A stretch of 64,000 nt of DNA from Azoarcus sp. Aa7 (GTDB lineage: Bacteria; Pseudomonadota; Gammaproteobacteria; Burkholderiales; Rhodocyclaceae). Positions within the stretch are counted from its first letter, which is position 1; each line of letters begins with the position of its first letter. The notes beneath the pieces were generated by a model. That model had not been told where the DNA came from. It saw only the letters and a list, made by a program, of their open reading frames with translations, and did no database searches. Below are positions 30,985 to 44,652 of the stretch, piece after piece. The DNA lies in NCBI RefSeq assembly GCF_014822185.1, contig NZ_QVLR01000060.1, positions 1-64,000 on the forward strand, given 5' to 3'. The position numbers and the translations under genes are program-made.

Positions 30985-31365
30985 TTACATCACGGCGATT
31001 TCGATCCGGCGCGGCTGCGCGTGTTCGGCCTTCGGAATGCGCAGTTTCAGCACACCCTGGTTGAATTCGGCCGACACCTTGTTCGCATCGAGTTCTTTCG
31101 ACAGCGTGAACGCGCGGCGGTATCGCGGCAGGTTCACTTCGGCGTGGGACGATTCCATGCCCTCGGGCGCTGCGAGGCTGATCTCACCCTCGATCGTCAG
31201 CGTGTCGCCTTCGACCTGCAGGGTCAGCTTGTCCTTCGGTACGCCCGGCAGGTCGGCGTACAGCGTGATCCCGCCGGCATCCTCGATGACGTCGACGGGC
31301 GGCAGCAGTGCCATCTCGCTGGCCGGGGCTTCGGGTTTGCGGGTGACGTTGGTGTTGTCGCTCAT
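30985..31365 (-). CDS. Hsp20/alpha-crystallin small heat shock protein
   Basis: A 126-residue small heat shock protein that holds unfolding proteins as oligomers. The alpha-crystallin domain runs from about residue 22 (PPVDVIEDAGGITLYADLPG) to GVLKLRIPK, the conserved GVL motif. A short C-terminal extension ends QPRRIEIAVM and contains an I-x-I/V-type pair. AGGAGG sits eight bases before the ATG. It is second of two adjacent hsp20 genes (13-base gap). Confidence 0.93.
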   Translation of the reverse strand: MSDNTNVTRKPEAPASEMALLPPVDVIEDAGGITLYADLPGVPKDKLTLQVEGDTLTIEGEISLAAPEGMESSHAEVNLPRYRRAFTLSKELDANKVSAEFNQGVLKLRIPKAEHAQPRRIEIAVM

Positions 31366-31378
31366 GTCCGGTTCCTCC

Positions 31379-31819
31379 TCACTCGATGCTGATGCGGCGC
31401 GGCTGGGCGGCCTGCCGGCGCTGGACGCTGACGTGCAGCACGCCGTCGCGGTACTTCGCGCTCACGGCGTTGGGATCGGCATCGTCGGGCAGGGTCACGA
31501 CGCGGCGGAAACGTCCGGAGAAACGCTCGTCGATATGCACCGTGGCATTGGCTTCCTTCGGCGGCATCACGCTCGCGCGCTCGCCGGCGATCGTCAGCAC
31601 GCCCTTTTCGAGCTGCACGTCGATCGTCGCCGGGTCGATGCCGGGCGCAAACGCGTAGATCTCGATGGAATGCGGCGTGTTGCCGACGTTGATCGCGGGA
31701 AAGCCGCCGCGCGCGAGACCGCGGATGCTGGGGGAGAACTCGTACGACTGCTGCATCTCGCGCTGCAGGCGATCGAGCTCGGACAGCAGATCGCGGGGAA
31801 ACACTGATCGGTACAACAT
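31379..31819 (-). CDS. Hsp20/alpha-crystallin small heat shock protein
   Basis: A 146-residue small heat shock protein. The N-terminal arm (LYRSVFPRDLLSELDRLQRE) is family-like; the alpha-crystallin domain follows (HSIEIYAFAPGIDPATIDVQ to DGVLHVSVQRR), ending RISIE. Two adjacent ATG codons (31822 and 31819) follow AGGAGG; the second has better spacing. It is first of an hsp20 pair of different sequence, an arrangement often seen in heat- and solvent-tolerant proteobacteria, where two classes may form mixed oligomers. Confidence 0.92.
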   Translation of the reverse strand: MLYRSVFPRDLLSELDRLQREMQQSYEFSPSIRGLARGGFPAINVGNTPHSIEIYAFAPGIDPATIDVQLEKGVLTIAGERASVMPPKEANATVHIDERFSGRFRRVVTLPDDADPNAVSAKYRDGVLHVSVQRRQAAQPRRISIE

Positions 31820-31966
31820 CATGATCCTCCTTCGGGCAGGGACGGGTGTCCGCTCGCAACACCCATGTCTGCGGATATAGAGGCGGTCGGCAGGACTTCA
31901 AGTCCACATGCCGCAACGCCTATGCCGAAGGAAGCGAGGAGCCGCGGCGCGGCTCCCGGGGGAGGC

Positions 31967-32536: not shown

Positions 32537-32670
32537 TGTTCGATGTTCTTTTGATGGAGTTCGGATGGAGGTGAGCGGGATGGTATACCTCCGCAAACTT
32601 TCGAGATATTCATTAAGAATATTTAATCCGCACTGTGGAATATCGACAATCCCTTGATGCAAAAGGCTTG

Positions 32671-35600
32671 TTATGGATTCTTCTTGATGCCTTTGGAATG
32701 TTTTGCGCGCCCTGGTGCTGGCGCTGGTGCCGGCGCCGGCGGCGGCAGTCCGGGGCAGTCCTGCTGGCCGAGGCTGCGCGCGAGTTCGCCGAGCACCCGG
32801 GCATGCGCCGCGTCGCCGGGGCGGCCGCGCAGGGCGGCCAGGCGCGCGAGCAGGCAGATCTGCTTCACGACGGAGTCGAACTTGCGCGCGCTGCGCGGCA
32901 CGTTGCCGATCGCCTCTTCGTAGACGCGGGCGAGCTTCGGGCCGTCGTCGGCACCGATTCCCGCGAGGAGCCGTGCGGCGAGTTCGGCGTCCGCCGGTTT
33001 CACCGCGTCGAAGAAGTCGCCGCTGCGCGCGAACAGCGCGCGCGCCGCCTGGGCGCACATGGCCGCCTGTTCGGTCGCGCGCTTGCGCCCGGCTGCGGCG
33101 TCGGTTTCGAGGAGCAGCCAGTCGAGTTGCAGGCGGTTGATCATCAGATAGGGATCGAAGCCCGTATCGCCCGGGGTGCCCTCGGCGCCGGCGTAGGCTT
33201 CGCGGGCGCGCGCCAGCGCCGCGCGGACGCTCGGCCAGTCGCCGTCCTTCGCGGCGAGCACGGCCGCCTCGCGCTTGAGGGCGCTGCCGAGCAGGGCGCG
33301 GCGTTCGGCGTTCGACGGCATGGGGGCCGTGCCGGGCGGCATCGGCTTTGCCAGCGCGATGAGGCTGTCGAGGCGCGCGATGGCGGATTCGATCAGGGTC
33401 GTATCGCCCCGCGTCTCGCCCATGCGGGCTTCGAGGTTGGCGAGCTGCTCGATGATGCGCACGGGCACGCGTCCGCTGCGGTCCTCGCCGGCGAGCGCGA
33501 GGCAATAGGCGGTGCAGGCGCGTTCGAAGCCTTCGGTGCCGAGTTCCGCATAGGTCGCGCCGATGGCGGCCTGTACCTCGGGCAAGTTCTTCCAGGTGGC
33601 CGGGACATGAGCAAGGACGGCCGCGATGTGGCGCTCGACCTCGGCGACGCGGCGCGACCGGTGCGACAGGTCGATGCGCAGGCGCGCGAAGGTGTCCACG
33701 AGGTCGACGGGCGAGACGATGTCGGTCGGGACCCGCGTCGTGCCGTCGTCGTCCGGGGCTTCGAGCATGTAGTGCGGATCGCCGTAGGCCTGGTAGGCGC
33801 CCCAGGTGTTGTACTGGGGAAACTGCTCCCATGCGTTCCTGCGCGCGGTGAACACGGCGGGGCCGAAGGGTTTTCCGTCGCGCACGAAGCTCTCGAAGAA
33901 GCTCGTCGCGAAGAGGCGGGCGGCCTCGTCATTGACCTGCCAGCCGGCCGCGACGACGCAGCGCACGCCGATCTCGATCAGTTCGCGCGCGATGCTGTAG
34001 GCGAGGCGGTTGGCCATGTCAGGGGCGACCGACATCGCGCCGAGGTGGCAGCAGTTGAGGAACACGAGCTCGGGCACGACCTCCAGCTGCGACACCTCGG
34101 CGGCGGTGAGCAGCATGCCGTCGGACAGGACGACGCCGGTGCGCTGCGTGCCGTCGCGCGCCGTGGCCTCGAACACGCCGTGGGCGGAGACGACGAGCAC
34201 CTTGCACGGCTGGCGGAAGAGGCGCGCGAACACGTCGAGCGCCTCGAGGCCTTCGCCGTAGCCGACTTCGTAGCCGCACTCGCCCAGCAGGTCGCGGATC
34301 GCCGCACCTTCGGCCGCCGCGCCGGGCAGGTCGGGCAGATGGTCGTCCTGCGGCGCGGGCAGCGGTCGCGACGGATCGCCGAACTGGCCGTAATAGCCGT
34401 GGGTGGAGGGGTTGGCGATCACGCACGCGAGCTTGCGCGTGATGCTGAGCGGGTTGCGGCGGAAGCGCCCGGAGGCGAACTGGCGCACGATCGCCGTCTT
34501 GAGCGCCATCGGCTGCTCGTCGGCCTGCAGCATTTCCCACGGCAGGTTCGCGGTGTAGCCGTCGACGACCAGGACGAGCTGTTCGACTTCGCGCGCGGCC
34601 GCCTTGAAGTCCAGCGGCACCATCAGCTGGAACAGCGTGCGCGACAGGTCGGCGTTGTAGTGGTCCTGGGTGATCGCGTTACGCACCAGCGCCTCGATGA
34701 GTCCGGGCTGGCGCTGGTGCACAACGCTTTCGGCGCGCGCGCGTTCGGACAGCATGACGTACTTCAGCCGTGCGGCGATCGCACGGCTGCTACCCGCCGG
34801 AGCCTGTGCGCCACCGTCCGCGGGGCCGTCGTCCGCGGTGACGAGCATGCGCGGCCAGTAGCCGAAGGGGGCGAACACCGACAGGCGCGGGCGGGCGCCT
34901 TCGCCCTCGTTGAGCTGCTCGGCGACTTCGATGCGCGACTCCAGGCGGCGCAGGTCGCCGGCCATGCGCACGGGCAGCTGGCGCACCGCGCGCGCGGCGC
35001 TGATCGCGGTGTCCATGAACAGTTCGATGAATTCGAGGCGCGCGACCCTCAGCCGCGTGAGCGGCATCGCCTCGGCGAACTGGCGGTTGGCGGCGAGCAC
35101 GCCGCGCACGATGGATTCGATGGAGTCGTCGACGCTGATATGGGCGGTGGAGTTGTAGCCGATCAGCAGGCTCGCGAGCGTGAGTTCGCCCGCCCCCTCG
35201 CCCTCGCCCGCGCCCTCGGTGCCCTGGCGGTCTTGCGAATGGAGCAGGTAGCGCAGTACGCCGGAACGCACGGTCTCGACGATGTCGGCGGTGGAGAGCT
35301 CGCCGAAGCGCCCCAGGCCGACGATCACGGCGCCGCGCCCGGTGCCGCGCAGGCGGTCTTCCCGGCTGCGCGCCTGCAGCACGACGGCCGCCGAGCCGAT
35401 TTCGCCCGCATACACGCCGAGCCGTTCGCGCTGACGCAGGGCGCCGTCGACCAGTGCGTCGTTGATCGCGGCCTCGGCGCCGGCGATCCCGTCGCCCAGG
35501 TAGTGTCCGCACAGGATGGGCTGGCGCGCGAAGCGCAGATCCATCGCGCTGACCGAGACCTGCAGCGGATGGATCGCGGACACCGGCCGGCGGCGGCGCG

Positions 35601-38496
35601 GACGGGTGCCGACGAGGCTGCAGACGAGTTCCTCCTCGGTCGGCAGCACGGGCGGCGGGGCGTCGTAGCTGGCGGTCGGGGCGGCGGCGCCGCGTGCGGC
35701 GGGCAGGCGGCCGAGACGGCTCGTGGCGCCGGTCTGCAACAGGTCCGCGACGGCGGGGAAGTATTCCTCGGTGCCGGTCAGCGCGCCGTGGTCGACCGGC
35801 ATGTACCAGTATTGCTCGGCCGGCAGGTTCGCGAGCCGTCCGGACGCCCAGCTCACCGAGCCGTCGCCCTGCGGGGTGCCGATCATCTTGATCTGGTCGC
35901 CTTCGGTCGTGGTGCCGCAGGGCGTGTTTTCGGCCTGGCCGAAGACGTAGGTCACGCGTTCGACGGGCTGCGGCGCGTCGTTGGTCGCGAGCGGCCCCTC
36001 CCACAGTCCGCGGGCAGCGGCGAGCGTGGCGTCGCCGGGTTGTCCGGCGATGCCGTCGCCGAACCAGCGGTCGCGGTTGGCCTTGGCGGCGACCGGCCAG
36101 ATGGGCGCGCGCAGCCAGTCGTCGTACCGTGTCGGTCCGGCGTCGACGAAACCGGGGCGCGGCAGCAGCTGCATCGCGCCGGGGAAGCCCGCGACGATGT
36201 CGAGCACCCCCTGCATGCCGTGGCCGAGATCCATGCGCGCGAGCTGGCGCATCGTGCCGGATTTGCCGAGCAGGGTCTCGACCATCAGGTGCGAGCCGTT
36301 GTTGGGCGTGCCCAGCATCACCAGCCGGCCGCCGGGGCGGCGCACGACTTCCGCCCACAGGTCGGGCCGTGTCGCGATCATCGTGCGGCACACGAGGCCA
36401 CCCATGCTGTGTGCGAGCAGGCGCACGGGCTGGTTCGGATGCGTCTTCAGCGCCTGGTCGAGCGTCTTGGCGAGGCGCTCGGCTGCGCCGTCCGGAGCGT
36501 GGACGGGTTTGCGCCAGTCGTAGGGGAAGCGGATGACGGTGTGCGTGCTTTCGAGATGCTCGGCGAGGTCGCCGTAGAACATGTCGAAGAGGGCTTCCTC
36601 GCGCACGTCGGCCTTGTCCATCGCGACCTTCGCGAGGCCGCCGGTCGCGAGGTCGAGGAAGTCGAACCACACGCGGTCGCCGTCGCCCGGCTTGCGTCCG
36701 TCCTTGCGCACCTCGAGGTGCGAACCCATCATGCCCGGCAGGAAGATCACGACCGGGCGACTGTCCGGGCGCGGCGCCTCGCGCAGGGCGGCCCGGCTGG
36801 CGTCGCGTTCGCGCGCCTCGGCGGCGCCGGGTTCGCGGCGGCGGGCGATGGCGCTGAAGGTGGGCAGGGCGGCCGGGTCGTTGCTCGTGAGCCAGTCGCG
36901 CAGCGCGGTGCGGGTATGGCGGTTGGCGAAGTAGCTGAAGTGATTGACCGACGCGCCCTGGTCGAAGAGGTAGCGCGCGTCGTTGCGCATCGCGAGGCCG
37001 GCGTACATCGAGTCGGTGTCGACGACGAGGTCGTTGTCGTGGCGGTCGAACAGCATCCAGTCGGTGAACATCACGCCGAGGCGCTTGAGCACGCTGGTTT
37101 CCTGGATGTCGCCGCTGATGACGGCCATCGCGATGCCCTGCTTGCGCTGCGCGGTCGCGAGCAGCGTGCCCATCGGCGCGTCGGTGAGCATCGCCTCGAT
37201 GCCGGGGACCAGACGCGCATCGACGCGCTTGTCGGCGATCTCCAGCACGATGCGCTTGAACGCGGACAGCACCGCGCCGCCGGCCGGGCCGGTCACGGCG
37301 CCGACGAGCCGGGCGGTGAGGCTCAGCAGCCCGGACAGGAACAGGTCGAGGTTGTCGGAGAGCAGCGTCGTGCCGCGCGCGGGGCAGGCGACGCGCACGT
37401 AGCGTTCGATGCGGAAGTTCTTGTCCGCGAGCTCCTGGCGCAGCGCGCGCAGCGTGTCCTGCTCGCGCGCGGTGACGAGGTCGCGCAGGCGCTTTTCGCG
37501 CTCGGATTCGCCCGCGTTGGGGGGCGTGGCGTGGCGGTAGGTGGCGATGGCGTCGTCGCTCAGGCCCGCGAGGCACAGCAGGTCGCCGACGAGGCCGCCG
37601 CGCGAATGCGTGACGACCGACAGGCGGGCGCCGGCGGGCAGGGTGCGTGCGAGCTGCAGCGCGTTGTCGATCGGGCTTTCCGAGAAGGTGCGGTGCTCGA
37701 AGCCGAAGATGCGCTCGCCGAAACGGCGTGCGAGTGGTTCCCAGTCCGCGGCGGCGCTGCCCGAGCGCAGATCCTTGAAGCTGCCCAGCGTGTGCGAGGC
37801 CGTGCCGTGGATGAAGAGCAGCGTCGGCGCGTCGCCGATCGCGGCGAGGCGCGGGTCGTTGGCCGCGCAGCGGTCGGCGCCGGCGAGGCCGCTGCCGTCG
37901 CGCCACTGGTAGAGCCCCGGTTCGCCCGCGAGGCGGCTTTCGATCGCCCACATCAGCGCCTTGGTGCCGAGCCACGACGCACCGGGCGCGGCGAGATCCT
38001 CGCTGCGCTCGCCCAGCCAGTCCTGCAGCCATTCCAGCGCCTTGTCGCGCGCCGCGTCGGCGATGGCGTCGTGCCCCAGCGTGAGGACCGACACGCCCGA
38101 CCACAGCCAGTCGGGAATGCCGCGCGCCGCCGCGTCCGGGTCGCGCAGAGCGGCGAAGTCGATCGAGCCGTCGGCACGGATTGCTTCCGGGCGCACGCGC
38201 GCGAGGTCTTCCTTGAGCTTGTCGGCGCGCATGAAGACGGTGGTGCCGTCGCCCGCCTCCAGTGCGAGCAGGCTGTCGTCGCGCAGGCGCGCGTCGGTCG
38301 CCGCAGCCGCGTCGCGCCCGGGCGCGGTCAGGGCATAAGCGGCCTGCACCGCGACCACGCCGTCGAGGAAGGGATCGGGCGCAGCAGTGCCGGCCGCGCG
38401 CGTGCCGGCCTTCAGCGCGGCGGGCAGGGTGTCGGCCTCGCGCGGCACCCCCGGCAGGTGGAAGACGAGCTCACTCGGTTTGCGCGGTGCCGGCAT
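32671..38496 (-). CDS. Giant CHAT-domain protein with two alpha/beta-hydrolase domains
   Basis: A 1941-residue protein with no signal peptide. Residues about 222-530 form an alpha/beta hydrolase (LLFIHGTASHTLGSF; elbow THSRGG with Ser298). Residues about 580-870 form a second, LCAT-like hydrolase (VVIFLPGMMGSHLE; elbow AHSMGG, Ser697). An alpha/beta region of unknown type follows (about 900-1290), then a CHAT caspase-like domain (about 1300-1560) with catalytic His1439 in VVSAHG and Cys1483 in FLNCCHLG. The last 350 residues are helical and TPR-like, with a proline/alanine tail. Its gene lies 66 bases after the metacaspase gene. Family knowledge: CHAT domains are proteases in bacterial conflict and death systems. 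Inference: proteolysis and lipid or ester hydrolysis in one effector. Confidence 0.85.
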   Translation of the reverse strand: MPAPRKPSELVFHLPGVPREADTLPAALKAGTRAAGTAAPDPFLDGVVAVQAAYALTAPGRDAAAATDARLRDDSLLALEAGDGTTVFMRADKLKEDLARVRPEAIRADGSIDFAALRDPDAAARGIPDWLWSGVSVLTLGHDAIADAARDKALEWLQDWLGERSEDLAAPGASWLGTKALMWAIESRLAGEPGLYQWRDGSGLAGADRCAANDPRLAAIGDAPTLLFIHGTASHTLGSFKDLRSGSAAADWEPLARRFGERIFGFEHRTFSESPIDNALQLARTLPAGARLSVVTHSRGGLVGDLLCLAGLSDDAIATYRHATPPNAGESEREKRLRDLVTAREQDTLRALRQELADKNFRIERYVRVACPARGTTLLSDNLDLFLSGLLSLTARLVGAVTGPAGGAVLSAFKRIVLEIADKRVDARLVPGIEAMLTDAPMGTLLATAQRKQGIAMAVISGDIQETSVLKRLGVMFTDWMLFDRHDNDLVVDTDSMYAGLAMRNDARYLFDQGASVNHFSYFANRHTRTALRDWLTSNDPAALPTFSAIARRREPGAAEARERDASRAALREAPRPDSRPVVIFLPGMMGSHLEVRKDGRKPGDGDRVWFDFLDLATGGLAKVAMDKADVREEALFDMFYGDLAEHLESTHTVIRFPYDWRKPVHAPDGAAERLAKTLDQALKTHPNQPVRLLAHSMGGLVCRTMIATRPDLWAEVVRRPGGRLVMLGTPNNGSHLMVETLLGKSGTMRQLARMDLGHGMQGVLDIVAGFPGAMQLLPRPGFVDAGPTRYDDWLRAPIWPVAAKANRDRWFGDGIAGQPGDATLAAARGLWEGPLATNDAPQPVERVTYVFGQAENTPCGTTTEGDQIKMIGTPQGDGSVSWASGRLANLPAEQYWYMPVDHGALTGTEEYFPAVADLLQTGATSRLGRLPAARGAAAPTASYDAPPPVLPTEEELVCSLVGTRPRRRRPVSAIHPLQVSVSAMDLRFARQPILCGHYLGDGIAGAEAAINDALVDGALRQRERLGVYAGEIGSAAVVLQARSREDRLRGTGRGAVIVGLGRFGELSTADIVETVRSGVLRYLLHSQDRQGTEGAGEGEGAGELTLASLLIGYNSTAHISVDDSIESIVRGVLAANRQFAEAMPLTRLRVARLEFIELFMDTAISAARAVRQLPVRMAGDLRRLESRIEVAEQLNEGEGARPRLSVFAPFGYWPRMLVTADDGPADGGAQAPAGSSRAIAARLKYVMLSERARAESVVHQRQPGLIEALVRNAITQDHYNADLSRTLFQLMVPLDFKAAAREVEQLVLVVDGYTANLPWEMLQADEQPMALKTAIVRQFASGRFRRNPLSITRKLACVIANPSTHGYYGQFGDPSRPLPAPQDDHLPDLPGAAAEGAAIRDLLGECGYEVGYGEGLEALDVFARLFRQPCKVLVVSAHGVFEATARDGTQRTGVVLSDGMLLTAAEVSQLEVVPELVFLNCCHLGAMSVAPDMANRLAYSIARELIEIGVRCVVAAGWQVNDEAARLFATSFFESFVRDGKPFGPAVFTARRNAWEQFPQYNTWGAYQAYGDPHYMLEAPDDDGTTRVPTDIVSPVDLVDTFARLRIDLSHRSRRVAEVERHIAAVLAHVPATWKNLPEVQAAIGATYAELGTEGFERACTAYCLALAGEDRSGRVPVRIIEQLANLEARMGETRGDTTLIESAIARLDSLIALAKPMPPGTAPMPSNAERRALLGSALKREAAVLAAKDGDWPSVRAALARAREAYAGAEGTPGDTGFDPYLMINRLQLDWLLLETDAAAGRKRATEQAAMCAQAARALFARSGDFFDAVKPADAELAARLLAGIGADDGPKLARVYEEAIGNVPRSARKFDSVVKQICLLARLAALRGRPGDAAHARVLGELARSLGQQDCPGLPPPAPAPAPAPGRAKHSKGIKKNP

Positions 38497-38562
38497 CGGG
38501 GTCTCCTGCTGCGGTTCGGTTAGGGCCGTGCGCGCCGTCGCAGGACCGCGCGCCGGCGCGTG

Positions 38563-39357
38563 TCACGCGAAGACCTTGAAGCGGCGCGCGCTGCGGGTGC
38601 CGAAGATCTGCGGATCCTGCGGCAGGCGCGTGGAGGGCAGGTAGTTGCGGATTTCCTTGAACCAGTGCTCGTAGGTCGCCGTCGCCGGCAGGTTCTTCAG
38701 CGTCTTCAACGCATAGAAGGTGAAGGCGCCGTTGGGGCGGCCGTTGAAGCTCGTGTCCCAGCTGAACTGCGTGTCGAGGCACCCCGCGAGCAGCAGGTCG
38801 CCACCGGCGCGCGTAAAGCCGCCGGACAGCCGCGCCGGGCGCACCGTGTCCGCGGGCAGGGCTTCGCGCTTCATCCACACGGACGGGGGCAGGAAGCGGG
38901 CGCGCGGCATGCCGGGGTCGAGATCGCTCTCGTCGCCGCGCGTGACGGTGCCGGAGTGGCAGCTGTCGGAGATGAGCACGATGCGCACGCCGCCGGCACG
39001 CCGGTTGAAGAGGTCGTGCAGCTCGTCGTCGAGCAGCACGTTGCCGCTGTCGATGTCCCACGGGCACAAGGCCTCGTCGCGCGCGTCGGGCTCGTCGCCG
39101 TCGGTGTCGGCCAGCCAGGTGCCGTGGCCGGAATAGGTGAGCACGATCGTGTCGCCCTTCGCCGCGCCGGTGACGAGGGTGTCGATGGCCTGCACCATCG
39201 CCGCCTTGGTCGCCGCCGAATCGAGCAGGCGCGTCACCGAGAAGCCGCGTTCGGTGAGGGCGGCGGCCCAGTCGCTGGCGTCATTGACGCAGCCGGAGAG
39301 GTCGCTGTCGGTGCCGGGGTAGTTGTTGATGCCGATGCAGAGCGCGCGTCTTGCCAC
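38563..39357 (-). CDS. Metacaspase-like caspase-family protease
   Basis: A 264-residue peptidase C14 (metacaspase type). The dyad is present: His78 in LTYSGHGTW and Cys133 in ISDSCHSGT. ARRALCIGINNYPG is the typical first strand, and a GDEPDARDEALCPWD segment supplies the usual acidic specificity region. The GTG at 39357 is chosen because AAAGGAG lies eight bases upstream and homology begins there. It stands between the GH46-like gene (206-base gap) and the CHAT gene (66-base gap) on the same strand. It may process or activate the CHAT protein, or be activated by it. Confidence 0.9.
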   Translation of the reverse strand: MARRALCIGINNYPGTDSDLSGCVNDASDWAAALTERGFSVTRLLDSAATKAAMVQAIDTLVTGAAKGDTIVLTYSGHGTWLADTDGDEPDARDEALCPWDIDSGNVLLDDELHDLFNRRAGGVRIVLISDSCHSGTVTRGDESDLDPGMPRARFLPPSVWMKREALPADTVRPARLSGGFTRAGGDLLLAGCLDTQFSWDTSFNGRPNGAFTFYALKTLKNLPATATYEHWFKEIRNYLPSTRLPQDPQIFGTRSARRFKVFA

Positions 39358-39522
39358 GAGATTCTCCTTTGGATACGGAGCATCCCCGCCTCCCGCGGCG
39401 GCCCCTTGCCGGGCGCATTTCGGAGCGATGCGGACGACTTCAGGCACAACCTTGCTGTCGGGGCATGCGGGCTGCCGCTGCCGGGACGGAGCGGTGCCGC
39501 GCAATTATTCTGTTTAATTATC

Positions 39523-39551
39523 TGTGTAGAGCCCGCTCACGCATTTGTCAA
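39523..39551 (-). promoter_or_regulatory. Candidate promoter for metacaspase and CHAT genes
   Basis: On the minus strand TTGACA (39551-39546) is followed after 17 bases by TACACA (39528-39523), a perfect -35 with a weak -10; an AT-rich TAATTA lies just beyond. TTTGACAAA also occurs a second time at 39561-39569, over the end of the upstream gene, giving a tandem repeat spaced 16 bases that could be a regulator site. The leader to the GTG start would be about 160 bases. Confidence 0.4.
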
Positions 39552-39563
39552 ACTGCGCCTTTG

Positions 39564-40514
39564 TCAAACCGTAACGTCGTCGAACGAGCACAGCCGTGCG
39601 ACCTGGGCGACGTCCGCGACGCCGGTGGCGGGAAGGCCGTTCTTCGCCTGCCAGGCCTTGATGCAACGGGCGCTGGTCTGGCCGAAGAGGCCGTCGGCCT
39701 TGATGTCTACGCCGCGCAGCGACAGGCCCAGCTGCATGCGGCGCACGTCGAGCCCGCGCATGATGGGCGAGCCGACCGACAGAGGGCGCGAACCCGGGGC
39801 CGGTCCGTCGAAGCAGCCCGGGGGCAGGGCGGCCAAGGTCGCGGGCGAAATCTCGGCGCTGCGTACGACCAGCGGCAGCTCGAGGTTCCAGAAGCCTTGG
39901 TCGATCAGGCGCTGGAAGGCATCCATGCGATACACCGTCGGGCGCAGGTCGGCGCGCGCGTGGCCGGCGAGCCAGGCGCGCCGCGTCGCCACGTAGCCGG
40001 CGATCCATTTCTGCTCGCCCGCGTCGGCCACGCTGCCGTGCGCCGCGTTGCAGCGGTCGCGCATCGCCTTCCACGCGCCGTGCACGAAACTGTCATACAC
40101 CACGGCGCAGCCCAGCGGCGAGGCGACGCCTTCGCGGGCGGCCGCGCGCATCGCGGGCTGCCAGTAGTTCTCGTCGAAGAAGGCGTCCTGCACGTCGCGC
40201 ATCACCGCGTCGTCGGCGCCGGCGCGCAGGATGTTGTGCAGTGCGTTGTCGTTGTCCAGAGCGAGGTCGACGGCGTCGAAGCGCGGCAGGTAGCGGTCGA
40301 GCAGGGGGGCGAATTCGGCGCCGGGCGTACTGCAGTACTGGCGCAGCAGCTTGGCGAGGTTGCCCGAGCCGAGCGTCGTCTGCGAGCGCCCGTAGGTGAG
40401 GTGGCCGGTGTCGCCGCGGATGATCGTGACCATGCCGTAGTCGCCCAGCGCCTGTCCGGTCTCGAAAAGATTCACGATGCTCTCGGCGGTCTTCTTCTGC
40501 GTGGCTGTCAGCAT
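39564..40514 (-). CDS. GH46 chitosanase-like hydrolase with peptidoglycan-binding domain
   Basis: A 316-residue protein. Residues 1-230 resemble GH46 chitosanases: ESIVNLFETG places a possible general-acid Glu at 18, and IIRGDTGHLTYGRSQ places Asp at 35, a spacing like that of known GH46 enzymes. Residues about 235-300 form a PG_binding_1-like domain (MQLGLSLRGVDIKADGLFG and AWQAKNGLPATG). No signal peptide or membrane segment is visible, which is odd for a wall-directed enzyme and suggests release by lysis or a dedicated secretion path. First of three same-strand genes with the metacaspase and CHAT protein. Its substrate may be chitosan-like or peptidoglycan glycan. Confidence 0.75.
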   Translation of the reverse strand: MLTATQKKTAESIVNLFETGQALGDYGMVTIIRGDTGHLTYGRSQTTLGSGNLAKLLRQYCSTPGAEFAPLLDRYLPRFDAVDLALDNDNALHNILRAGADDAVMRDVQDAFFDENYWQPAMRAAAREGVASPLGCAVVYDSFVHGAWKAMRDRCNAAHGSVADAGEQKWIAGYVATRRAWLAGHARADLRPTVYRMDAFQRLIDQGFWNLELPLVVRSAEISPATLAALPPGCFDGPAPGSRPLSVGSPIMRGLDVRRMQLGLSLRGVDIKADGLFGQTSARCIKAWQAKNGLPATGVADVAQVARLCSFDDVTV

Positions 40515-40608: not shown

Positions 40609-43600
40609 TCAGCCGCCGGGATCGCTCCGGTCGTCGAAACAGTCGATCAGCGCGATCACCAGGTTGCGCGATGCGGTGCGGAACTTCAGGCCGGCGAGCG
40701 CGCGGCGCGCCGAGGTCTGATAGCCATGGTTATAGTCTGCGACGATCTGGCCCGCCAGCTTGTGGAAGGCCTTGTGCATGCGCGCGAGATGCGCGAGGCG
40801 GTCGGCGGGCAGGGCATCGTTGCCGTCGATCCATTGGCCCAGCTGGCACAGGCTCACCGAGCTCGCTTCGGAATCTTCCAGCGCGTCGGCGGCGGACCGC
40901 CCGCTGACATAGGTGTTGAGCCGCTTGCGCCAGCCGAGGTGTGCCTCGATGGCCTGCTTCAGGTCCAGACCGTGCCGCTTCCAGCCTTCCCGTTCCAGGA
41001 ACGCGGCCAGATCGGGCGAACGTTCGCCGAGCAGCCGGCGCAGCCAGCCGTCGACGTCGAGGTCGTCGCGGCGCAATGCGGTGAGCAGGCGCGACTCTTC
41101 CGGGTCGAGATGGTCGACCGAGGGCAGCAGGAAGTGCTTCTGCAGCATCGCCTCGAACTCCTCGGGCGGCAGCGGCTTGCCGATGAGGTAGCCCTGCAGG
41201 AAGTCGCAGCCGAGTTCGCGCAGGAAGCTTACCTGCTCGTCGGTCTCGACGCCTTCCGCGGTGACGTGCAGTCCGAGGCTGTGGGCCATGTTGATGATGG
41301 CCTCGACGAGATGCGCGTCGTTGCGGTCATCCGGGCAGTCGTTGATGAAGCTGCGGTCGATCTTGACGATGTCGACGGGGAAGCGCTTGAGGTAGGACAG
41401 CGACGAGAAGCCGGTGCCGAAGTCGTCGAGCGCGTAGCCGATGCCCAGCGCCTTGATGTCGCGCATGCGCGCCTCCATCGATTCGCTGCCGCCCATCAGC
41501 ACCGACTCGGTGATCTCGACCATCAGGCTGCCGCGGTCCATGCCGAATTCCGTCAGCACGCTGGCGACCAGGTCGGGCAGTCCGGCTTCGCGGAACTGCA
41601 CGCCGGACATGTTCACCGCCAGTCGCGGCGTCCCATGCCCCTGTTCGCGCCAGGCCCGGGACTGGCGCGCGGCCTCGCGCAACGCCCATTCGCCGATGCC
41701 GATGATGAGGCCGCTGTCCTCGGCCACGGGGATGAACTCCAGCGGCGACACCGGACCGCGCGTGGGGTGAATCCACCGGATCAGCGCCTCGGCGCCGACC
41801 AGTTCGCCGCTGTCGGTATCGACGATGGGCTGGTAGTGCAGCGAGAAGGCCTGCTGTTCGAGCGCGATGCGCAGGTCCGCCTCGAGCTTCATGCGCGCGA
41901 GCGCGTCGCTCTGCATGTCGCGGGCGTAGAACTGGAAGCGGTTCTTGCCGGCCTGCTTGGACTTGTACATCGCGATGTCGGCGTTGCGGAACAGCGCCTG
42001 CAGGTCCTCGCCGTCGTCCGGGTAGACGGTGATGCCGACGCTGCCCGACATGCGGTGCTGCATGCCGCCCAGCGAGAACGGATCGCGCAGCACGCTGACG
42101 ATCTTCTCGGCGATCGCGTTCAGGTCGTCGGGTTCGGCGAGGTCGTGCACCACGATCGTGAACTCGTCGCCGCCGAAGCGCGCCACGGTGTCCTGCTCGC
42201 GCACGCAGAAGGTCAGGCGGCGCGCGACTTCGACCAGCAGTTCGTCGCCGGTATCGTGCCCCAGCGTGTCGTTGATCCACTTGAAGCCGTCCAGGTCGAT
42301 GAACAGCAGGCCGACGTGGGCGCGGTTGCGCCGCGCATGCGTCATCGCCTGGTCGAGTCGGTCCTGCAGCAGGCTGCGGTTGGCGAGCTTGGTCAGCGGG
42401 TCGAAGTTGGCCTGGCGCCAGATGGCCTCCTCCTGCTGCTTGCGCTGGGTGATGTCGTTGAACAGCGAAATGTAGCCGGTGACGGCACCGCGGTCGTCGT
42501 AGATGGCCGAGATCGTCTGCCACTGCGGATAGATCTCGCCGTTCTTGCGCCGGTTCCAGATCTCGGATTCCCAGCGGCCCTCGTGGGTCAGCGAATCCCA
42601 CATGTTCGCGTAGTAGGTCTCGTCGTGGCGCCCGGAGGCGAGCACCGAAGGCTTGCGTCCGAGCACCTCCTCGGCGGCGTAGCCGGTGATCGCGGTGAAC
42701 GCCGGATTGACGGCCGTGATCAACACATTCGCGTCGGTGGTCATGATCCCCTGGCTCGACGCGTTGAACACCACCATCGCCTGCTTCATGCGGGTTTCGA
42801 TGCGCTTGCGCTCGGTGACGTCCTGCATGCTCAGCTGCAGCAGCGTGCGGTCGCGATGGCGGAAGCTCATGCAGCGGATCTCGGCGTCCCACTCCTCGCC
42901 GTCCGGGCGGCGGTTGCGCCACTCGAACACGCTCACGCGCGTGTCCAGGCAGCGCGAGAGCTGGTCGTTGCCGGCCTCGCCCGACGGGCGCCCGTCCGGT
43001 TGCACCGGCGCGGCCAGGTCGAGCGGGGAGCGGCCGATCATGCTGCGCCGGTCCGGGTAGCCGCACAGCGCCGCCGCCGCGTCGTTGCAGTCGATGAAGC
43101 GGCGCGTGCCGGGGTCCAGGATCGCCTGCGCGATGTGCGAATGCTCGAACAGGGTCTTGTTGTACGACTCGCTGTCGACCAGCGCCTGCATCGCCTCCTT
43201 CGGCGCCGAAACGTCGTTCATCACGCCGACGAACTGCCGTGGCTCGCCGCCGGGGGCGAGGACCGGCGCGATGCGCAGGTCGCTCCAGTACAGCTCGCCG
43301 TTCTTGCGGCGGTTGAGGAGCTCGCCCTGCCAGCTCTCGCCCCGCAGGATCACCCTCCACAAGTCCTCATACAACTCGTGCGGCGTCTTGCCGGAGCGGA
43401 ACAGCGCCGGCGTTTGCCCAAGGGCTTCGCGCGCGGGGTAGCCGGTGATGCGCGAGAACGCCGGGTTCGTGTATTCGATCGCGGCGGAGCGGTCGGTGAT
43501 GATGATGCCCGAGGTGCTCGCATCGACCGCCACCTTGTACAGGTGAAGACGGTGCGCGGCGCGGCGGCGCTGCTCCAGCAGCACGCCGGCCAGCACGATC

Positions 43601-44652
43601 AGCAGCATCGCGATGATCTCGACGTGCATGTGCAGCAGCGTCGTCCAGCCCAGCGCGGAGCGGTCGACCACGTGATATATCGTCCATGGCGCGTTCTTCA
43701 GGCGAACGCCCGCCAGCAGCCAGCCCTCGTGCTCGCCGTAGCCGGTTGTCGCGACGTCGACGAACTGCGGAAGGTGGCCGGAGAGTTCGCGTGGCAGCGT
43801 GCGGTCGACGAGGCGGACTTCCGAATCACCCGGTTTCACGATTTCGGGATCGGCAATCAGCTGGCCCTGCTCGTTGGTGACGAACATGCGGCCGATCTCC
43901 ATGCCGGGGCCGGCGAGGTAGCCATTCAGGGTCGCGAGCGTGATGTCGAGCGCGATGATGGCGCGGAAGCGGCCCGCTTCATCGTACACCGGCGCCGTCA
44001 CCGAACTCATCATGCCCTTGCCCGCTTCGTCGACGTAGGCCTCGCTCCATTGCAGCGCGCGATCCGGATTGTTCTCCGGTGCGGCGCGCGTGACGACCGG
44101 GTGCGTGAGCATCTCGTCGCGCCAGCTCAGATACTTCCACTGCGCATCGAGTGGATAGACGCTGACGAAGCCCGCGCGCGACGTGTAGTACACCCACGCC
44201 GCCTGCGGAACGTTCTCGCGTACGCGCTGGAACACGGGAATCAGGTGCAGCGCAACCTCGATCTCGCGTTCCATCGGCGCGGGAAGGGCGGCGGGATCGC
44301 CGCGGCCGAAGACGTAAGCGCCGAGGCCGGGCGGCAGATCTTCCGGGATGCGCGTCGTCGCGAACAGGCCGGGTTCGGGGAACGCCGCGAACGCCTCGCG
44401 CAGCGGGCTGCGCGCATGGACGACCTCGTCGCGCAGCGCACGTTCCGCCTCCACGCGCAGCATCGCGACGTGGTCGGTGCCGGATTTCGCCGTGGCATCG
44501 AGCGCACCGCTCATGGCCTGCAGGCTCTCGCCGGAAAGGCGTAGCGCCGCGGCGACGCGGAAGGACCACAGTTCGTAGAAGCCGACGCTCGCGAACCCGA
44601 TCACGGCGGCGTACGCGATGAGCACGACCCGGTTGAGCTGCGGAGCTTTCAC
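40609..44652 (-). CDS. Membrane PAS-GGDEF-EAL-CZB c-di-GMP signalling protein
   Basis: A 1347-residue sensor. A transmembrane helix at the N-terminus, a periplasmic Cache-type domain of about 280 residues and a second helix (IIAMLLIVLAGVLL) come first. Three PAS domains follow, with RRKNGELYWSDLRIAP and RRKNGEIYPQWQTISA typical of PAS/PAC. The GGDEF domain is intact (ARFGGDEFTIV, about residue 824), as is the EAL domain (GAEALIRWIHP, about 954; DDFGTGFSSLSYL). The C-terminal 150 residues match a zinc-binding CZB domain: an AHLGWRKRL His, CQLGQWI Cys and HKAFHKLA histidines. It may thus make and degrade c-di-GMP in response to periplasmic ligands and cytoplasmic zinc. Confidence 0.9.
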   Translation of the reverse strand: MKAPQLNRVVLIAYAAVIGFASVGFYELWSFRVAAALRLSGESLQAMSGALDATAKSGTDHVAMLRVEAERALRDEVVHARSPLREAFAAFPEPGLFATTRIPEDLPPGLGAYVFGRGDPAALPAPMEREIEVALHLIPVFQRVRENVPQAAWVYYTSRAGFVSVYPLDAQWKYLSWRDEMLTHPVVTRAAPENNPDRALQWSEAYVDEAGKGMMSSVTAPVYDEAGRFRAIIALDITLATLNGYLAGPGMEIGRMFVTNEQGQLIADPEIVKPGDSEVRLVDRTLPRELSGHLPQFVDVATTGYGEHEGWLLAGVRLKNAPWTIYHVVDRSALGWTTLLHMHVEIIAMLLIVLAGVLLEQRRRAAHRLHLYKVAVDASTSGIIITDRSAAIEYTNPAFSRITGYPAREALGQTPALFRSGKTPHELYEDLWRVILRGESWQGELLNRRKNGELYWSDLRIAPVLAPGGEPRQFVGVMNDVSAPKEAMQALVDSESYNKTLFEHSHIAQAILDPGTRRFIDCNDAAAALCGYPDRRSMIGRSPLDLAAPVQPDGRPSGEAGNDQLSRCLDTRVSVFEWRNRRPDGEEWDAEIRCMSFRHRDRTLLQLSMQDVTERKRIETRMKQAMVVFNASSQGIMTTDANVLITAVNPAFTAITGYAAEEVLGRKPSVLASGRHDETYYANMWDSLTHEGRWESEIWNRRKNGEIYPQWQTISAIYDDRGAVTGYISLFNDITQRKQQEEAIWRQANFDPLTKLANRSLLQDRLDQAMTHARRNRAHVGLLFIDLDGFKWINDTLGHDTGDELLVEVARRLTFCVREQDTVARFGGDEFTIVVHDLAEPDDLNAIAEKIVSVLRDPFSLGGMQHRMSGSVGITVYPDDGEDLQALFRNADIAMYKSKQAGKNRFQFYARDMQSDALARMKLEADLRIALEQQAFSLHYQPIVDTDSGELVGAEALIRWIHPTRGPVSPLEFIPVAEDSGLIIGIGEWALREAARQSRAWREQGHGTPRLAVNMSGVQFREAGLPDLVASVLTEFGMDRGSLMVEITESVLMGGSESMEARMRDIKALGIGYALDDFGTGFSSLSYLKRFPVDIVKIDRSFINDCPDDRNDAHLVEAIINMAHSLGLHVTAEGVETDEQVSFLRELGCDFLQGYLIGKPLPPEEFEAMLQKHFLLPSVDHLDPEESRLLTALRRDDLDVDGWLRRLLGERSPDLAAFLEREGWKRHGLDLKQAIEAHLGWRKRLNTYVSGRSAADALEDSEASSVSLCQLGQWIDGNDALPADRLAHLARMHKAFHKLAGQIVADYNHGYQTSARRALAGLKFRTASRNLVIALIDCFDDRSDPGG

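Follow-up and report, generated by a model that had tools for sequence, protein, structure and literature searches.

Proteins with CHAT or caspase folds act as cysteine proteases in conflict systems. According to the available sections of PMC12847820, ADP-ribose derivatives made by TIR proteins switch on effectors containing macro domains or caspase-like proteases, and the pairing of a caspase with an alpha/beta-hydrolase is described for VMAP conflict systems in the available sections of PMC7159879. LypABC of Caulobacter is a protease-containing, defence-like gene set that drives lysis and serves gene transfer agent release; it has peptidase and ATPase domains, and CHAT, lipase and hydrolase go unmentioned in the accessible main text (PMC13236601).

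We compared these systems with a locus in a 64,000-nucleotide stretch of the Azoarcus sp. Aa7 genome (hereafter, the window). Three minus-strand genes with intact open reading frames encode a GH46-PG_binding protein, a caspase-like protease and a giant multidomain protein (Table 1), with gaps of 206 bp (GH46-caspase) and 66 bp (caspase-giant), in agreement with the same-strand trio described in the initial annotation. As in type IV Thoeris (PMC12847820, sections available), the set includes a caspase-like protease, and TIR genes lie near a number of related giants, but the window's locus adds a giant CHAT-lipase and Pfam detected no TIR among its six proteins, so it was not assigned to that type. 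The three TIR_2 matches of the genome itself are on contigs C107, C51 and C80, and the window is on C60. A caspase stands beside an alpha/beta-hydrolase as in the VMAP pairs (PMC7159879, sections available), whereas here a single chain combines the hydrolases with CHAT and TPR-S, and a Pfam scan of the six proteins of the locus found no MoxR ATPase, vWA or VMAP (other window ORFs were judged by eye). Compared to the TPR-CHAT protein of Craspase (Csx29), the giant has its TPR-S part at the C-terminus and includes two hydrolases and a macro-type fold in the same chain, and no Cas7-11 (gRAMP) was detected with Pfam among the same six proteins. The locus resembles the phage holin-endolysin pair in having a wall hydrolase with no evident signal peptide, for which the inner membrane needs opening first, and many wall-hydrolase relatives match PHROGs called endolysin or amidase. 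It differs in that the membrane step would be performed by a lipase instead of a holin, and, when 50,697 phage records were searched with tblastn (1e-5), neither the giant nor the GH46 protein gave a match. The parts are already known; what appears to be new, judged from sequence, is a single-chain giant joining CHAT, double-hydrolase, macro-type and TPR-S parts, with interchangeable wall-hydrolase partners. No description of such a combination was found in the literature searched, which left most subscription papers outside its scope, nor was a relevant paper found there under the domain names DUF7379 and TPR-S.

Table 1 Features of the locus in the window.
Feature	Coordinates	Strand	Evidence or remark
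Two adjacent HSP20 genes	30985-31822	-	Downstream of giant
Giant multidomain protein, 1941 aa	32671..38496	-	ORF; aligned with 80 other non-redundant giants
TPR-S (Tetratricopeptide Repeats-Sensor), giant residues 1660-1791	33124..33519	-	Pfam PF20308 5.1e-8, 33.9 bits, cut-off 27.6
CHAT protease, giant residues ~1212-1580, H1439/C1483	33757..34863	-	Pfam CHAT 105.8 bits
Macro-type fold (leucyl-aminopeptidase N-domain / macro), giant residues ~975-1185	34942..35574	-	
LCAT / lysosomal-phospholipase-A2-like hydrolase 2, giant residues ~574-930, S697-D878-H903	35707..36777	-	Pfam LCAT 36.2 bits
Alpha/beta-hydrolase 1 (DUF7379), giant residues ~211-540	36877..37866	-	Pfam DUF7379 1.2e-33, 117.2 bits
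Caspase-like protease (Peptidase_C14), 264 aa from GTG	38563..39357	-	Pfam; start from relatives' ATG
GH46 + PG_binding_1 protein, 316 aa	39564..40514	-	Pfam
GGDEF-EAL-PAS gene	40609-44652	-	Ends 94 bp upstream of GH46 gene
1962-codon ORF antisense to whole giant	32635-38523	+	ORF list; taken as high-GC by-product

The death or defence role suggested in the initial annotation is partly supported: the caspase-giant link is wide, the catalytic residues are conserved, and giants repeatedly have genes for TIR, patatin, TPR-S or wall-hydrolase proteins nearby. The cassette probably has a conflict or suicide role. On the basis of gene linkage, domain content and conserved active sites, we tentatively read it as a system of regulated self-lysis of the abortive-infection type (probability about 0.4). 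In favour of self-lysis are the caspase neighbours, the co-occurrence and correlated distances of caspase and giant, the affinity of hydrolase 2 to phospholipases, the wall hydrolases of several families with low N-terminal hydropathy, the gene orders of L079 and L069, and the TIR_2, patatin and TPR-S neighbours (all detailed below). The giant would be held inactive until its TPR-S domain, its macro-type domain or both receive a signal, which in some other loci may come from adjacent TIR or second TPR-S proteins. The activated CHAT protease would cleave the giant itself, the neighbouring caspase or both, and the inner membrane would come under attack from the phospholipase-like domain, perhaps aided by hydrolase 1. 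This breach would give the cytosolic GH46-PG_binding protein access to peptidoglycan, as a holin releases endolysin, and the cell would lyse. If true, a single bacterial death programme would combine proteolysis of the caspase type with an attack on membrane phospholipids and hydrolysis of the wall, and switching on a CHAT protease with built-in lipases would be open to direct test. We consider it rather unlikely that the cassette is a repeatedly assembled, host-encoded equivalent of holin plus endolysin, with the CHAT-phospholipase as holin, interchangeable wall hydrolases of endolysin class (GH46, GH19, M15, amidase, muramidase) as a second blade, the caspase as a gate and the TPR-S/macro-type part as receiver of a TIR-made nucleotide signal.

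The CHAT assignment agrees in profile, fold and His/Cys pair, and hydrolase 2 has the profile, fold and Ser-Asp-His residues of LCAT/lysosomal phospholipase A2 (PLA2)-like lipases. In structure comparison of the model, hydrolase 2 was closest to lysosomal PLA2/LCAT, followed by the type VI phospholipase effector Tle4, with which it shares fold and Ser-Asp-His, although this predicted lipase sits within the giant chain. Structural matching covered mainly residues 574-930, and hydrolase 1 was modelled only within a longer chain; its putative alpha/beta-hydrolase fold is suggested by the motif, Pfam and strand order in the model, where a strand and then a helix surround S298 of THSRGG. Searches of the whole giant returned one weak local match in NCBIfam and six weak sequence matches in PDB (E 0.012 to 0.077). 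The initial annotation had correctly recognized both hydrolase elbows (THSRGG and AHSMGG, with nucleophile positions S298 and S697) and the CHAT domain with its His1439/Cys1483, both present; its domain reading missed the macro-type fold and the TPR-S match within the helical tail that it reported. The long antisense ORF was read as a by-product since the Pfam matches and conserved residues sit in the minus-strand frame.

For the neighbour survey, 108 giants longer than 1600 aa were reduced to 81 by removal at 80% identity, or 80 without the window, among which 74 include 1.1 kb of upstream sequence and 68 include 1.5 kb of sequence on each flank; partners are matches to local profiles or proteins, not Pfam. 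Two giant alignments were used (64 of 81 rows in one, 50 of 80 in the other). Across the 81 giants (pairwise <80% identical, window included), S298 is kept in 78 (one Cys, one Gly, one gap) and D489 and H519 of hydrolase 1 in all 81 each; D463 is also invariant (50/50 alignment rows), making D463 and D489 alternative candidates for the acid of hydrolase 1. Serine 697 is kept in 75 of 81 giants (six Gly), and D878, H903, H1439 and C1483 are each found in 81/81. The hydrolase and CHAT catalytic residues, whose loss would have spoken against the initial annotation, are therefore conserved, and the near-constant conservation of four active sites down to ~30% identity supports self-lysis. The giants with Gly at position 697 (L085, L091, L102, L130, L132 and L136) retain D878 and H903, and L136 has a separate patatin gene nearby. 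Two of them, L102 and L130, are without the serine of both hydrolases. The six Gly cases and these two double losses count against self-lysis.

The caspase-like protease matches Peptidase_C14 (Pfam 92.1 bits, 5.5e-26, cut-off 21.4), and its His/Cys dyad is kept in 60/60 aligned caspase rows (redundant rows included). The previously proposed metacaspase dyad His78/Cys133 fits a start at the GTG at position 39357, where relatives carry ATG; the same residues are H127/C182 in the longer ORF. The caspase was the sole PADLOC match at the locus, with none for the giant, a result that counts against self-lysis. It lies directly upstream of the giant (gap <=220 bp) in 30/74 non-redundant loci, and 33/74 have it on the same strand at a distance of up to 2.5 kb. 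Grouped by identity of the giant to that of the window, a caspase neighbour occurs in 2/5 (>=55%), 22/39 (40-55%), 1/1 (36-40%) and 8/29 loci (<36%); its lower frequency beside the most diverged giants, compared to the 40-55% group, also counts against self-lysis. Among 200 related genomes, all 19 with a full-length caspase match of >=55% identity also have a giant, including 11 of the 11 caspase genomes outside the genus, where 26 genomes have giants (Fisher 5e-11, kinship ignored). One genome (G025) was excluded from the 19 because its caspase match is split (45% plus a 77-residue piece at 58%); it has this caspase relative and no giant match, counting against self-lysis. Pairwise distances of caspase and giant are correlated (r=0.62, 35 loci; 0/5000 permutations as high). 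In two of the 19 genomes (G109, locus L202; G118, locus L203), the caspase adjoins the gene that in relatives comes after the giant, but the giant is absent at that site and matched elsewhere in the genome, and in G014 the giant follows a GGDEF-EAL gene without the caspase or GH46; these three cases count against self-lysis. The frequent adjacency and correlated distances, together with sites that carry one gene alone, indicate that the two are linked yet separable. Thus, of the co-occurrence that the initial annotation had made a test of its operon, the caspase-giant pair held, being separable and not scattered, whereas GH46 is no general partner.

Both domains of the GH46 protein exceed their Pfam cut-offs (GH46 [chitosanase], residues 13-215: 64.4 bits, 1.5e-17, cut-off 27; PG_binding_1, residues 254-308: 38.3 bits, 1.5e-9, cut-off 23), as expected from its earlier description as a peptidoglycan-binding GH46-like enzyme. 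It matches the PDB chitosanase 7c6c (1.9e-19), where E18 aligns with a Glu that we take to be the catalytic Glu of chitosanases (7c6d has Ala there), and D35, one residue off the Asp pair in this alignment, is a candidate catalytic Asp. The window shares its contiguous order of GH46, caspase and giant with seven further Aromatoleum genomes. At E 1e-3, 13 genomes of the 200 have GH46 matches; the strong ones are confined to eight same-genus genomes and one unlinked copy, and 8/9 adjoin the giant system. GH46 was therefore rejected as a general partner of giants.

Other wall hydrolases adjoin the giant or its caspase in 12/68 other loci, four of which also have a caspase. With GH46/GH46-like included, five families are represented: GH19 (L079, next to the caspase; L089; L113), M15 (L056, L058, L061, L143), Amidase_2 (L069, L110), muramidase (L137) and a GH46-like domain (L055, L128). 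Pfam backs eight of the 12, with L079 at a score below the GH19 cut-off and L128 through its PG-binding part alone; L058, L069 and L143 are phmmer matches only, and the L055 candidate had no Pfam match. A single profile alignment (probability 78, E 1.8e-5, 68 columns) and a PHROG of unknown function shared by L055 and L128 underlie the GH46-like call. In a PHROGs scan of nine of the 12, eight matched endolysin or amidase families (L128 via its PG-binding part) and L055 did not; the GH46 protein of the window matches such PHROGs solely via its PG-binding part. N-terminal hydropathy was 0.37-1.84 in 12 wall hydrolases tested (window included) vs 2.30-3.07 in three exported controls, and was low by eye in L143, which speaks against signal peptides in these proteins. 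The GH19-caspase-giant order of L079 repeats the layout of the window.

These neighbours bear on a somewhat unlikely alternative, a conflict system without lysis as output, in which caspase and CHAT would degrade cellular proteins, the lipases would damage membranes and the wall hydrolases would be opportunistic cargo. Consistent with this, 56/68 loci have no nearby wall hydrolase of the tested classes, and, in the available sections of the sources, type IV Thoeris (TIR plus caspase-like protease) degrades cellular proteins (PMC12847820) and caspase and alpha/beta-hydrolase genes go together in VMAP systems (PMC7159879). Against it, five families are involved and all 12 wall-hydrolase matches in 1.18 Mb of flanks adjoin the giant or its caspase, although the queries themselves came from flanking genes. 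Matches in 31 genomes (Amidase_2 40, M15_3 26, GH19 10) give a base rate of ~2.5 per genome. If a genome is assumed to have ~4000 genes, ~0.2 would be expected vs 9 observed in the 272 genes that flank the 68 giants most closely (two per side), a comparison that overstates the case because the families were chosen after being seen there. Across the 200 genomes, all three close M15 matches adjoin the giant (1e-5 gives 7 matches in total); adjacency of amidase relatives (1/7) and of the L055 type (1/5 close matches, 13 in all) counts against self-lysis. Neighbours of the giants in L101 and L091 were rejected as wall effectors since they resemble housekeeping genes, presumably of RlpA and PBP1C type, indicating that wall genes also lie near giants by chance. 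The fullest version of the set seen is in L069 (caspase, amidase, giant, TIR and astacin-like genes on one strand), and on a Thauera contig an Exo_endo_phos protein (L138:698-1669) lies between a putative GH19-type fragment (by eye) and the giant.

Within 2.5 kb on the same strand, the 68 loci have TIR (9), TIR-like plus TPR-S proteins (8), patatin (3) and SLOG-like genes (8), where 'TIR-like' and 'SLOG-like' are labels given by eye; two SLOG-like neighbours scanned had no Pfam match. Pfam TIR_2 was found in nine scanned neighbours from eight loci (L045, L050 [twice], L055, L056, L063, L069, L114 and L119), with those of L045 and L114 on the opposite strand. In 24/68 loci, including L114 with its TIR gene on the other strand, none of the tested partners is present on the same strand at up to 2.5 kb; this counts against self-lysis and is the point in favour of a metabolic or lipid-remodelling complex that uses CHAT and caspase for processing and has no death role. 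We regard such a complex as very improbable, given that caspase and TIR neighbours recur and the protease active sites are conserved.

At E 1e-3, 50/200 related genomes have giant matches, of which 39 fall below 1e-60; two candidate places were scored per genome, so giants may be missed. Among GTDB contigs, at least 569 of 591 pattern-matching stretches encode a giant relative, and the 80 places kept from these represent 78 distinct loci, including by title Proteobacteria, Desulfobacterales, Nitrospira and Cyanobacteria (Synechococcus, Cyanobium). Fourteen plasmid records match the giant, none over 80% of its length, and one copy on an Azotobacter plasmid adjoins type I restriction-like genes. 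The window itself is unlike the defence island envisaged in the initial annotation: with ORFs judged by eye, the surroundings of the trio resemble housekeeping genes, which counts against self-lysis.

It is improbable that the set serves stress-triggered developmental or recycling lysis or content release, and not antiviral defence. LypABC exemplifies the use of a defence-like set for lysis (PMC13236601, accessible text), and synteny with the GGDEF-EAL and HSP20 genes is stable in Aromatoleum; this reading is opposed by the TIR, TPR-S and patatin neighbours, the plasmid copies including the one beside restriction-like genes, and the patchy presence of the giant in the same genus (13/17 Aromatoleum genomes). 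The GGDEF-EAL-PAS gene could be a member of the set. It adjoins the system in eight Aromatoleum genomes and immediately precedes the giant in G014 (L038), and the six closest genomes likewise carry the HSP20 gene pair at their loci.
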